Positions 4,623 through 40,644 of a DNA stretch of 64,000 nt are shown here, piece by piece. Position 1 is the stretch's first letter. The number at the start of each line of letters is the position of its first letter. This DNA comes from Hyphomonadaceae bacterium (GTDB lineage: Bacteria; Pseudomonadota; Alphaproteobacteria; Caulobacterales; Aquidulcibacteraceae), in contig JAEUMT010000027.1 in the NCBI GenBank assembly GCA_016791365.1, positions 248,001 to 312,000 of the forward strand. Reading direction: 5' to 3'. A program made the position numbers and the translations under genes. The notes under the pieces are model-generated. The model saw only the letters and a program-made list of their open reading frames with translations, ran no database searches and was not told the DNA's origin.

Positions 4623-5077
4623 TGCGAGCTGTTTTGGTTGCGGCGATGGTGGCGTTAAGTGCGTGTGGGCAGAGTGCGCAGGCACCGGAGGACGTTGCGC
4701 CGCCCGTGACGGCGGCCACATCGGGTGCGTGGGATCAAAACCTGATCTCTTTGCTACCCTTCATCGACGCGTGCATTGCTAAGTCACCGGAGACGCGCAC
4801 GATCACCTATGCGGCCGCCACCGGCGAAGCGTTGGTGGCGGTGCGGCTGAGCGGTGCTGGTGGCGCCGTCGATTGCACGGTGCCAGACCACGACCCGTCG
4901 CCGACCTACGCGCAAATCTCTCCGCGCCGAGAGAATTGGGCGCCAGAAAGCGAGAACACGGCGATCTTCGTGCGCGGGCCGGGGGAGAATCCAGGCGGCG
5001 AGTGTTACGAGGCGCCGGAAGTGCGTGACGCGAATGGCGCGGTCGTTGGGTGGATGCTTGATCCGGAGGGTTGTTGA
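4619..5077 (+). CDS. Small lipoprotein of unknown function
   Basis: 152 residues with a short signal ending in lipobox LSAC (Cys near residue 16). The mature part has no motif I recognise. It contains cysteines in DACIAK, DCTVP, GECYEAP and the C-terminal EGC, which could form two disulphides in the periplasm. The start ATG at 4619 overlaps the stop of the YhhN gene (ATGA); a second ATG follows at 4622. A long palindromic repeat lies between this gene and the convergent hutH. Confidence 0.75.
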   Translation: MMRAVLVAAMVALSACGQSAQAPEDVAPPVTAATSGAWDQNLISLLPFIDACIAKSPETRTITYAAATGEALVAVRLSGAGGAVDCTVPDHDPSPTYAQISPRRENWAPESENTAIFVRGPGENPGGECYEAPEVRDANGAVVGWMLDPEGC

Positions 5078-37759: not shown

Positions 37760-37963
37760 TCAATTGGCGCCCGCATGCGCACGCTTATGCGCGAGCGCCG
37801 CATTTTGCGCGGTCTGCCAGCGGCGCCACGTTTCAATCGAAGGCACCGGATCATCAGCCCAGTTGGGAACTTCGACGCCGGCCGCGATGTAGTCTGCCGG
37901 CGTCAGCGCATCGCGCTCCGCGTCTTCCGCTGTAAGCGAGTTCGTGCGTCCGATTTTGGTCAT
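37760..37963 (-). CDS. Small hypothetical protein
   Basis: 67 residues, acidic and Ala-rich, with IPxxE-like WADDPVPSIETWRRWQTAQNAAL. No family is recognised. The ATG at 37963 has AAGGAAA 5 bases upstream, which supports a real gene. It is the last of three tiny leftward genes and ends 7 bases from the convergent heparinase gene. Confidence 0.6.
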   Translation of the reverse strand: MTKIGRTNSLTAEDAERDALTPADYIAAGVEVPNWADDPVPSIETWRRWQTAQNAALAHKRAHAGAN

Positions 37964-37998: not shown

Positions 37999-38181
37999 CT
38001 AGATGCCGTCGTGCTCGATCAGTATGAGTTTGGCAGGCGCGGTTAAGTGGCGTTGCGCCGCGGCGACGCCATCACGCGCATCAGCCTCCGACCGGTAATC
38101 GGCGAAAAAGGCGCCGTTCAAAGTGACACGCCAGATTCCGTGGCGAAGTCTCAGCGTGAATGTTGAGTCCGGCGCAATCAT
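37999..38181 (-). CDS. Small hypothetical protein with DUF2188-like pattern
   Basis: 60 residues: a beta-hairpin-like GIWRVTLNGAFFADYRSE, then an Ala-rich helix (ADARDGVAAAQRHL) and a short strand (AKLILIEHD). This resembles DUF2188-type small domains, but the match is weak. Its ATG overlaps the stop of the gene before it (ATGA), evidence that both are translated. Confidence 0.58.
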   Translation of the reverse strand: MIAPDSTFTLRLRHGIWRVTLNGAFFADYRSEADARDGVAAAQRHLTAPAKLILIEHDGI

Positions 38182-38384
38182 GTAAAGCCCGGCGTCGTCG
38201 GGCCGCGGCTATCGACGCCAAAGAGGCGGACGAGCAAATGCTCGCCTTTCCAGACCTCAATGATGGCATTGCGGCCCGATCCCGCGCGTCCATGATCCAT
38301 CGCCTCAAGATCGTTTGCGAACGCCAGCACTTCCGAGCGCGCGGTGACGCCCGCGGCGCTTTTGTACCGAATGGAGTAATTCAA
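38178..38384 (-). CDS. Small hypothetical protein
   Basis: About 68 residues if it starts at the TTG at 38384, which has GGAG 8 bases upstream; an earlier TTG at 38414 is possible. It contains YSIRYKSAAGVTARSEVLAF and EVWKGEHLLVRLFGVD, a beta-alpha-beta-like layout also seen in its neighbour, so the two may be distant relatives. Function is unknown. First of three small overlapping or adjacent genes. Confidence 0.5.
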   Translation of the reverse strand: MNYSIRYKSAAGVTARSEVLAFANDLEAMDHGRAGSGRNAIIEVWKGEHLLVRLFGVDSRGPTTPGFT

Positions 38385-38601: not shown

Positions 38602-38646
38602 ATTCCTGCCTATTCCCGAATATTCCAGTTGTATTCAAGACATTCC
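38602..38646. promoter_or_regulatory. Five ATTC iterons in helical phase upstream of the XRE gene
   Basis: ATTC begins at 38602, 38612, 38622, 38633 and 38642, spacings of 10, 10, 11 and 9 bases, and four of the five continue as ATTCC. The run ends 6 bases before the regulator's start codon. Repeats one helical turn apart put each copy on the same face of the DNA, as expected for cooperative binding. I infer that the XRE protein binds here and controls its own operon. Confidence 0.6.
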
Positions 38647-38651
38647 TACCA

Positions 38652-39329
38652 ATGACTGGACCCATGAAATTCGGCGAGTACCTCAAGAACCGGCGCACCG
38701 AGCTTGGATGGACGCAGCCCGATGCGGCCGCCAAAGCCAGCATCGAGCAATCCTATTTGTCCAAGCTCGAGACCGGAAAATCGTTTCCGTCCGAGGACGT
38801 CTATCAGCGTCTGGTCGAAGCCTTCGCCCTCGACACCGAAGCCATGGTGGGCGCCCTCTACCCCGCCGAGCTTGATCGCCTGCGCGAGATCGAAGCCGTC
38901 CGCAAACACCTGCTCCAGCGCGAGCACGATACCCGCTCGATCACCCGCCGCTGGCTCTACGCCGGCCTCGGCGCGCTCATCCTTGGCGGCGGCCTCGTCG
39001 GCCTCGCGCAGATCGATCGCGGCGGCGCCGCCACCCACTACACCTACCAGTCCGAAGGCGTGATCCGCCCGGGCGAAAGCGCCGATGTCTTCGATGACCT
39101 CGACGAGAATCCGCAACTCCGCGCCCGCGCTGACGAGCAACAGATCTTCATCCCCGAAATGCGCGGCCCGGCGTTCACCGAAACCGTGCCCGAAGGCCGC
39201 CGCGAATGGCATCTCGTCGGCGCCAACGCAGTTCTCGTCCCGGCCAAATTCGGCTGGGCTCTCATCCCGGGCTTCGCGCTGATCATCGGCGGGCTTGGAT
39301 GCTTCTTCATCAGCTGGCGCAGACCCTGA
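38652..39329 (+). CDS. Membrane-anchored XRE-family transcriptional regulator
   Basis: 225 residues. Residues about 5-65 are a helix-turn-helix of the XRE/Cro type (FGEYLKNRRTELGWTQPDAA, SIEQSYLSKLETGKSFPSED). After a basic linker, a hydrophobic segment lies at about 99-119. A periplasmic-size region follows (about 120-200, with RPGESADVF and QQIFIPEMRGPAFTETV). A second hydrophobic segment (about 204-221) ends the protein. This is a one-component design: an outside signal could change DNA binding directly. It lies 7 bases before a serine-hydrolase gene. The start could also be the ATG at 38664. Confidence 0.87.
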   Translation: MTGPMKFGEYLKNRRTELGWTQPDAAAKASIEQSYLSKLETGKSFPSEDVYQRLVEAFALDTEAMVGALYPAELDRLREIEAVRKHLLQREHDTRSITRRWLYAGLGALILGGGLVGLAQIDRGGAATHYTYQSEGVIRPGESADVFDDLDENPQLRARADEQQIFIPEMRGPAFTETVPEGRREWHLVGANAVLVPAKFGWALIPGFALIIGGLGCFFISWRRP

Positions 39330-39336
39330 GGACCTA

Positions 39337-40488
39337 ATGAAACTCTCCGCACTGATTTTCGCCGCAGCCCTCGCCGGCTGCGCTACCAGCTCGCTGCCTG
39401 CAACGCAGCGTGTCGACAGCGCCAATTTGGATGCGCGTATCGAAGCACTGATGGCGCGCGAGCAGGTTGTCGGCATGGCCGTCGCGATCGTCGATCACGG
39501 CGAGATCACGCACGTCAACGCCTATGGCTTGCGCAATCGCGAGAACGCGCTGCCGCTGCAGACCGATACGATCATGTACGGCGCGTCCGTCACCAAAGCC
39601 GCGTTCGCATACATGGTGATGCAGCTCGTGGACGAAGGAAAAATCGATCTCGATCGCTCGATCGCGGATTATCTGCCGCGTCCGCTGCCAGAGCTTGAAG
39701 ACTACACCGACCTCGCCGGCGACGAACGCTGGCGCCAGCTCACGCCGCGCATTCTGCTCACGCACCGCAGCGGTCTCGCCAACATGCGCTTCCTGGAGCC
39801 TGACCAAAAACTGCGCTTCCATTTCACGCCAGGCGAGCACTACGCCTACTCAAACGAAGGCATCTGGATTTTGCAGATCGTGCTGCAAGAAGGCCTCGGC
39901 CTCGATGTCGGCGCGGAGATGCAACGCCGCGTATTCGATCGCTTCGCCATGACGCGCACATCAATGCAATGGCGCGACGATTTCGCCGGCAATCTCGCCG
40001 ACGGCTATACCATGGATGGTACATTCGAACCGCATGATCGTCGCGACAATGTCGCCGCCGCCGGCTCGATGGATACAAGCATCGCCGACCAGGCCCGCAT
40101 GTGGCGCGGCATGTTTGCCGGCGAAGGCCTCTCCCGGGCCGCCCGCGCCGAATGGGTGCGCGCGCAATTCCCGATCCGCACGACACAGAAGTTTCCGACC
40201 ATCCAGTTCTTCAACACCGTCGACACGCGCGGCGAAGCCTCCGGTCTCTCCGCTTCACTTGTCGGCGAAACCTGGAACGGCCCGAACGATCGCTATTTCT
40301 CAAAGGGCGGTCACAACGATTGGACCGGCAATCTGGTGATCTGCGCCGAGCGCCAGCAGCGCTGCCTGATCATGTTCGGCAACAGCGTCCGCGCCGAGGT
40401 GATTTATCCGGAGATCGTTGCGCTCGTGTTCGGCGAAACCGACTTTCCGTTCTGGTGGATCTATCCGGAGCTGCAGCCGCATGAGTGA
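39337..40488 (+). CDS. Beta-lactamase-fold serine hydrolase lipoprotein
   Basis: 383 residues with lipobox LAGC (Cys15). The three motifs of class-C beta-lactamase/esterase relatives are present: SVTK (84-87, nucleophile Ser and Lys), YSN (171-173) and KGGHND near the C-terminus. It could be a D-alanyl-D-alanine carboxypeptidase, esterase or beta-lactamase; motif content cannot decide. The ATG at 39337 has GAGG 5 bases upstream and gives a proper signal. It follows the membrane-bound XRE regulator on the same strand, so it is the best candidate for that regulator's target. Confidence 0.9.
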   Translation: MKLSALIFAAALAGCATSSLPATQRVDSANLDARIEALMAREQVVGMAVAIVDHGEITHVNAYGLRNRENALPLQTDTIMYGASVTKAAFAYMVMQLVDEGKIDLDRSIADYLPRPLPELEDYTDLAGDERWRQLTPRILLTHRSGLANMRFLEPDQKLRFHFTPGEHYAYSNEGIWILQIVLQEGLGLDVGAEMQRRVFDRFAMTRTSMQWRDDFAGNLADGYTMDGTFEPHDRRDNVAAAGSMDTSIADQARMWRGMFAGEGLSRAARAEWVRAQFPIRTTQKFPTIQFFNTVDTRGEASGLSASLVGETWNGPNDRYFSKGGHNDWTGNLVICAERQQRCLIMFGNSVRAEVIYPEIVALVFGETDFPFWWIYPELQPHE

Positions 40489-40513
40489 AATGCCGGTCTC
40501 AAAAGGTTCTCTT

Positions 40514-40602
40514 CGTCATCCTGGGGCTCGCGGAGCGAGACCCGGGATCCAGATGTGGCCCCTGGATCCCGGGATCGCACGTTGTGCGCCCCCAGGATGA
40601 CG
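40514..40602. repeat. Palindromic repeat upstream of purH (third family)
   Basis: The outer arms CGTCATCCTGGGG (40514-40526) and CCCCAGGATGACG (40590-40602) are perfect. The inner arms CCCGGGATCCAG (40541-40552) and CTGGATCCCGGG (40562-40573) are also perfect, with 9 bases between. The unit lies between the hydrolase stop and the purH start and would be transcribed as leader or read-through RNA. Confidence 0.87.
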
Positions 40603-40644
40603 GAGTCGCATTGACCCGGTTTCGAGTCGGAGCCATCAGGCGTC

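Follow-up and report, generated by a model that had tools for sequence, protein, structure and literature searches.

A putative membrane-anchored XRE regulator with phased ATTC boxes before its own gene and a serine-hydrolase lipoprotein as lineage-specific neighbour

ToxR, CadC and TcpP have winged-helix domains and one transmembrane segment, and ToxR and CadC are known activators; BcrR has an N-terminal XRE-like HTH followed by four transmembrane helices, lacks a sizeable domain outside the cytoplasm, and controls a transporter operon by way of inverted repeats. All four, BcrR as the bacitracin regulator of Enterococcus faecalis, are listed as transmembrane transcription regulators (TTRs), which are defined by a predicted DNA-binding domain together with at least one predicted transmembrane region and regulate transcription from the membrane (PMC10269533). 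HigX of Caulobacter is, like the regulator described below, an alphaproteobacterial membrane-bound, envelope-tied regulator beside a putative hydrolase gene; as a LytTR protein with four transmembrane helices and no periplasmic domain it was rejected as a member of the same family, and it differs further in its many ChIP sites and its inverted-repeat motif (PMC13384398). TTRs are common, yet for only a few of them are operator, signal and target set all known. Here we describe an XRE gene and its neighbours in a stretch of 64,000 nucleotides (the window), with the following features:

38602..38645, + strand: five phased ATTC boxes, a putative operator array (sequence, conservation in orthologues, uniqueness in the genome)
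38621..38636, + strand: invariant core TATTCCAGTTGTATTC, present exactly once in each of 11 congeneric genomes
38646..38663, + strand: spacer containing CCAATGACTGG, putative −10/start region, mostly conserved in congeners apart from 1-bp indels
38664..39329, + strand: predicted membrane-anchored XRE regulator of 221 aa (HTH_31 and HTH_3 matches, alignments, start analysis)
38664..38855, + strand: N-terminal HTH domain, residues 1-64 (IEQSYLSK invariant in 32 members; structure matches)
38952..39008, + strand: predicted transmembrane segment 1, residues 97-115 (hydropathy in 32 members; model)
39015..39257, + strand: predicted periplasmic beta-alpha-alpha-beta-beta-beta domain, residues 118-198 (alignment; model)
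39258..39314, + strand: predicted transmembrane segment 2, residues 199-217, then a short C-terminus (hydropathy)
39337..40488, + strand: serine-hydrolase lipoprotein of PF00144 (145 bits against a cut-off of 27), 7 bp after the XRE stop
Within the hydrolase gene: lipobox ALAGC; SVTK at 39586-39597, YSN at 39847-39855 and KGGH at 40303-40314

As far as sequence can tell, the XRE protein fits the TTR definition. HTH_31 (48 bits) and HTH_3 (35 bits) both score above cut-off; the solved structures nearest to the HTH fold are DdrO (Z 10.3, rmsd 1.7, 69 residues), P22 c2 and SinR; and matches to 1b0n by profile (E 3.6e-10, ending near residue 74) and to the SinR-DNA structure 3zkc (Z 9.2, rmsd 1.4, 62 residues) mark the HTH as SinR-like. 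The alignment places the invariant IEQSYLSK in the recognition segment. Beyond residue ~74 the model predicts a long helix containing the first membrane segment, with a further C-terminal helix, and hydropathy finds two hydrophobic segments in 32/32 aligned members, separated by loops of 77-116 residues (~83 aa in the window protein, in agreement with its predicted structure); the two membrane segments and periplasmic loop of the original prediction are thereby backed.

The protein is like ToxR, CadC and TcpP in joining a DNA-binding domain and membrane segment(s) in one chain with no kinase; unlike them it has an XRE domain and a putative sensor domain flanked by two transmembrane segments, and its presumed own promoter carries an array of direct repeats. 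With BcrR it shares an N-terminal XRE-like HTH followed by membrane helices, and it is set apart by its two segments against the four of BcrR. RstR was rejected on score: a match to NF041951 is common to all 32 members and reaches 35 bits in the window protein against a cut-off of 80, and RstR is a soluble phage repressor. Searches of plasmids and phages for the XRE family found none, and viral contigs gave matches of HTH length only. RodZ was rejected likewise (HTH_25 at 21 bits against a cut-off of 24.6, no other domain such as the periplasmic DUF4115 of RodZ, two transmembrane segments where RodZ has one). That the XRE domain nevertheless sits in a structural, RodZ-like membrane protein, the array before it being coincidental, could draw on this sub-threshold similarity to RodZ-type HTH_25, but the invariant recognition helix, a conserved gene-specific array and a topology unlike that of RodZ make it hardly credible.

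The domain between the membrane segments was modelled with a pLDDT of 88 and a pTM of 0.72, and its alignment contains invariant Y, S, G, E, R and R residues. In the PDB the best match, with Z 3.3 across 52 residues, was not significant, and Pfam gave no match in the window protein and only scattered single-member matches in its relatives; such absence does not prove a new fold. As the domain has no known relative, its sensing role is assumed from topology. No description of the two-segment XRE family was found in the open literature. The best reading is a family of XRE regulators not described before, anchored in the membrane, carrying an orphan periplasmic domain and matching no named family tested. 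It offers a compact, unnamed periplasmic domain and an operator predicted from sequence alone, of which each genome in the genus of the window apparently has one copy; its members include named species in culture, for example Thalassotalea marina, Marinicella, Aliidiomarina soli and Pacificimonas aurantium.

The boxes start at 38602, 38612, 38622, 38633 and 38642 (spacing 10, 10, 11 and 9 bp), precisely where the original prediction had placed them. Its statement that the array ends 6 bases before the XRE gene has to be revised: four congeners have the ATG at 38652 out of frame by 1 bp and a further one has CTG in its place. The start is therefore very probably ATG 38664 (MKFGEYL), which widens the gap to 18 bp. 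Its term "iterons" was also loose, since the array resembles an operator and not a replication origin. Judged within the window alone, the array is only mildly unusual: ATTC-N6-ATTC-N6-ATTC with at most one mismatch has one match in 64 kb, against 0.32 expected in shuffles. The case for it therefore had to rest on comparison across genomes, which makes the observation decisive at the level of sequence. Throughout the 3.46-Mb genome to which the window belongs, this array is the sole occurrence of three boxes at 9-12 bp spacing (ATTCN{5,8}ATTCN{5,8}ATTC).

The XRE gene is present in 11 of the 30 genomes of the window's genus, its own genome included, the other copies being 73-94% identical. Five boxes are kept in all 11 orthologues, at about −62, −52, −42, −31 and −22 from the corrected start, and the block from first box to ATG is largely conserved except for 1-bp indels; the DNA immediately 5' of the array is unrelated between congeners (~36% best-offset identity). 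Beyond the exact TATTCCAGTTGTATTC cores the 11 genomes contain one further site in total, with two mismatches, and a regulon search turned up neither another array in the window's genome nor another exact core in the congeners. The boxes accompany the XRE gene to differing genomic locations. The original prediction hung on the repeats being present upstream of close homologues, and we found them in 11/11 congeners as well as in alpha- and gammaproteobacterial relatives at ~28-60% identity.

To find relatives, 84,980 species genomes were scanned with a profile, the scan patterns favouring members that carry the peptides IEQSY and KLETGKSF; many of the genomes compared are MAGs, and the whole analysis is computational. 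The scan gave 32 XRE loci, down to 28% identity, in the congeners, in Pacificimonas, Oceanicaulis, Kordiimonas and Ponticaulis, and in gammaproteobacteria (e.g. Glaciecola, Idiomarina, Thalassotalea, Marinicella and Colwellia). Another of the loci bears the label Flavobacteriaceae; its XRE protein groups with Colwellia in the tree, which makes mis-binning of a MAG contig the probable explanation. In one gammaproteobacterial order that was searched, 24 of 296 genomes yielded 25 XRE loci. Two tandem XRE paralogues occur in a Kordiimonadaceae MAG (L119, 6679-7450), and the second of them is preceded by ATTC/GAAT boxes of its own.

ATTC boxes are present in nearly all 32 loci; a few members (L132, L185) show a weak array or lack one. 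For 29 genes, that of the window and 28 non-congeneric ones, we counted 99 boxes in the 110 bp upstream against 28.8 expected, with spacings that cluster at 9-12 and 20 bp, i.e. one or two helical turns. At least two boxes 9-12 bp apart were found in 42/46 XRE upstreams vs 3/284 control upstreams, the controls being taken from the same loci before ORFs chosen mechanically and not curated as genes; many of the XRE upstreams are kin, so that p-values overstate independence, and the conclusion of deep conservation does not rest on them. Most members of g474, a gammaproteobacterial genus with small genomes that we take to resemble Kangiella in gene content, have six boxes spaced 10, 10, 10, 10 and 12 bp. 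The consensus of 43 upstreams aligned on the core pair reads ..ATATTCct..aTATtcc...ATATTCAtCT...TATTCct....t.at..c.AA.aAt, and TATTCCAGTTGTATTC aligns with the ATATTCATCTnnnTATTC core of gammaproteobacterial members. In AT-rich gammaproteobacterial genomes the one-mismatch core pattern matched often, little above the reversed control. Phased ATTCCGC boxes in two congeners (G026, contig C22, L151 1500-1540, and similarly G003:C399) were considered as further sites and look unrelated; the former precede an apparent tyrosine-integrase gene and are possibly integrase arm sites.

It is very unlikely that some other factor, such as a global regulator or an alternative sigma factor, owns the array and happens to drive the XRE genes. 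The link between XRE protein and boxes is itself predicted, which leaves room for such a factor; a global factor, however, would have many sites, whereas the exact core occurs once per congener and only before XRE, and the boxes follow the gene to new locations and even stand before the second of the tandem paralogues in L119. We infer that the XRE protein itself binds the boxes. The original prediction of action on the repeats with no separate kinase gains to this extent: the array is conserved and gene-specific in the genome, and DNA binding is the predicted part.

Scans found no sigma-70 consensus promoter before the XRE gene and no terminator, and no Shine-Dalgarno sequence was seen in the spacer 38646..38663. 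Since the sigma-70 scan gave none, the view that the array overlaps a promoter, with the spacer as the presumed promoter region, rests on comparison with gammaproteobacterial members, several of which show the last box, then N4, then TATGAT (a good −10), then an inverted GAAT.

Our preferred reading, held with moderate confidence, is a membrane-anchored XRE one-component regulator that acts cooperatively on its own promoter, with the hydrolase co-transcribed in this lineage. The HTH would lie in the cytoplasm, joined to two membrane helices with a small periplasmic sensing domain between them; through the phased boxes the protein would bind cooperatively to one face of its promoter, and the periplasmic domain would tune this binding. 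In this lineage the promoter would also drive the adjacent hydrolase lipoprotein, so that the output would be more regulator and more envelope hydrolase. Most likely, the state of the cell envelope is what the protein senses, and its control extends to little beyond its own operon: with almost no second site in the congeneric genomes, it appears devoted to that operon, which would suit a membrane-tethered factor produced beside its gene. Direct repeats are unusual for a dimeric XRE protein, which counts against the proposed mechanism. The same objection arises from SinR, which binds inverted repeats tenfold better than tandem ones and whose box, GTTCTYT, occurs in multiple copies and orientations (PMC3163267). 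SinR and SlrR resemble the XRE protein in HTH fold and in their short multi-copy boxes, the resemblance of GTTCTYT to ATTC being suggestive only; they differ in being soluble proteins without membrane helices, and their HTH is followed by a C-terminal two-helix SinI-type oligomerisation domain.

The same anatomy could serve an activator of its own operon, BcrR- or CadC-like, whose array recruits polymerase upon a signal. Most boxes stand where those of an activator would, 5' of the presumed promoter core, and several named transmembrane regulators, ToxR and CadC among them, are activators; in gammaproteobacterial members, however, the gene-nearest box stands just upstream of the likely −10 (ATTC-N4-TATGAT) and the inverted GAAT box downstream of it, both more typical of repression. 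We consider activation possible but unlikely, and prefer repression because the boxes reach the −10 region in these members. The array makes testable the membrane-tethered reading of a helically phased operator, and the idea of a membrane factor working mainly on its own gene. A wider proposal, which we put forward only tentatively, is a family of membrane-anchored factors with their own promoter as the only strong target, an orphan periplasmic domain that senses an envelope cue, and a use as plug-in controller to which different lineages couple different periplasmic hydrolases. If true, a self-only target would avoid the site-finding problem, as the protein would be made and inserted beside its gene (transertion).

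The last base of the XRE stop codon is 39329 and the hydrolase begins with an ATG at 39337, a gap of 7 bp as first described, and the SVTK, YSN and KGGH motifs reported for the lipoprotein are all present in the PF00144 protein. Its assignment as a class C beta-lactamase was rejected (NF033085 56.7 bits, far below the cut-off of 415). The hydrolase lies directly 3' of the XRE gene in 11/11 congeners, and the same type follows XRE in Pacificimonas and in Oceanicaulis PL25a. The idea of a compact sensor/effector unit, with the hydrolase retained as neighbour, holds for this lineage only: outside the congeners the partner is present in the two other alphaproteobacteria, and most XRE homologues are without it, being solitary or facing convergent genes. 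In Pacificimonas (L116, 6938-7820) the hydrolase is apparently frameshifted beside an intact XRE gene, a pseudogene or an assembly error.

The XRE-linked hydrolases are compatible with a single origin, with weak to moderate tree support (79/0); in the XRE tree the partners from Pacificimonas and Oceanicaulis are placed differently, so that transfer or re-pairing is likely. Free-standing homologues of the hydrolase in other genomes (42-67% identity) have unrelated upstream genes and, in the upstreams inspected, no ATTC array, which indicates that the array goes with XRE. A different PF00144 subfamily lies 3' of XRE in Oceanicaulis HTCC2633 (L117 6767-8041) and in the gammaproteobacterium G1025 (L200 2301-3698); these two are 35% identical to each other and about 24-26% to the PL25a copy, which is of the window type. 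PF00144 genes number 11-22 per genome in five genomes checked, roughly 0.3-0.7% of genes by estimate, and two extra pairings among some twenty lineages, although noticed post hoc, are suggestive. Other genes downstream of XRE relatives encode a serine carboxypeptidase, an M14 peptidase and a pectate lyase.

The suggestion that the pair interrupts an rpe-heparinase-purH neighbourhood proved right for part of the genus. The pair lies between heparinase and purH in five genomes (G000, G001, G004, G009 and G019), and the heparinase-purH gap is ~190-370 bp without it in G005 and G024; in other carriers it is placed differently, beside purH with heparinase elsewhere (G027, G029) or away from heparinase (G023, G026, G003 and G016, the contigs of the last two being short). 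From these differing locations it follows that the pair has moved or been lost repeatedly in the genus. G000 contig C45 carries at 4862-5030 (L041, minus strand) a second, truncated XRE start; its ~25 residues run on into unrelated sequence, its ATTC array is conserved in part, and a possible transposase start lies ~0.8 kb away.

Patchy occurrence (11/30 congeners), changing locations and, within the same genome, a truncated XRE copy a short way from a transposase-like start would all suit a mobile cassette of the addiction or immunity-like kind, whose XRE protein keeps a harmful hydrolase in check. We judge this very improbable: most XRE relatives stand alone, without any hydrolase, the searches of plasmids and phages found none, and the hydrolase family is also free-standing. 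The own-operon regulator remains our preferred reading of the pair. On either side of it we noted a 67-aa ORF (MTKIGRTNSLTAEDAERDALTPADYIAAGVEVPNWADDPVPS...) at 37761-37963 on the minus strand, in the non-conserved gap between heparinase and array, with a doubtful second short ORF on that strand near 38003-38182, and, between hydrolase and purH at 40500-40610, a REP-like palindromic element with GGATCCCGGG arms, whose tested motif occurs once in the window.
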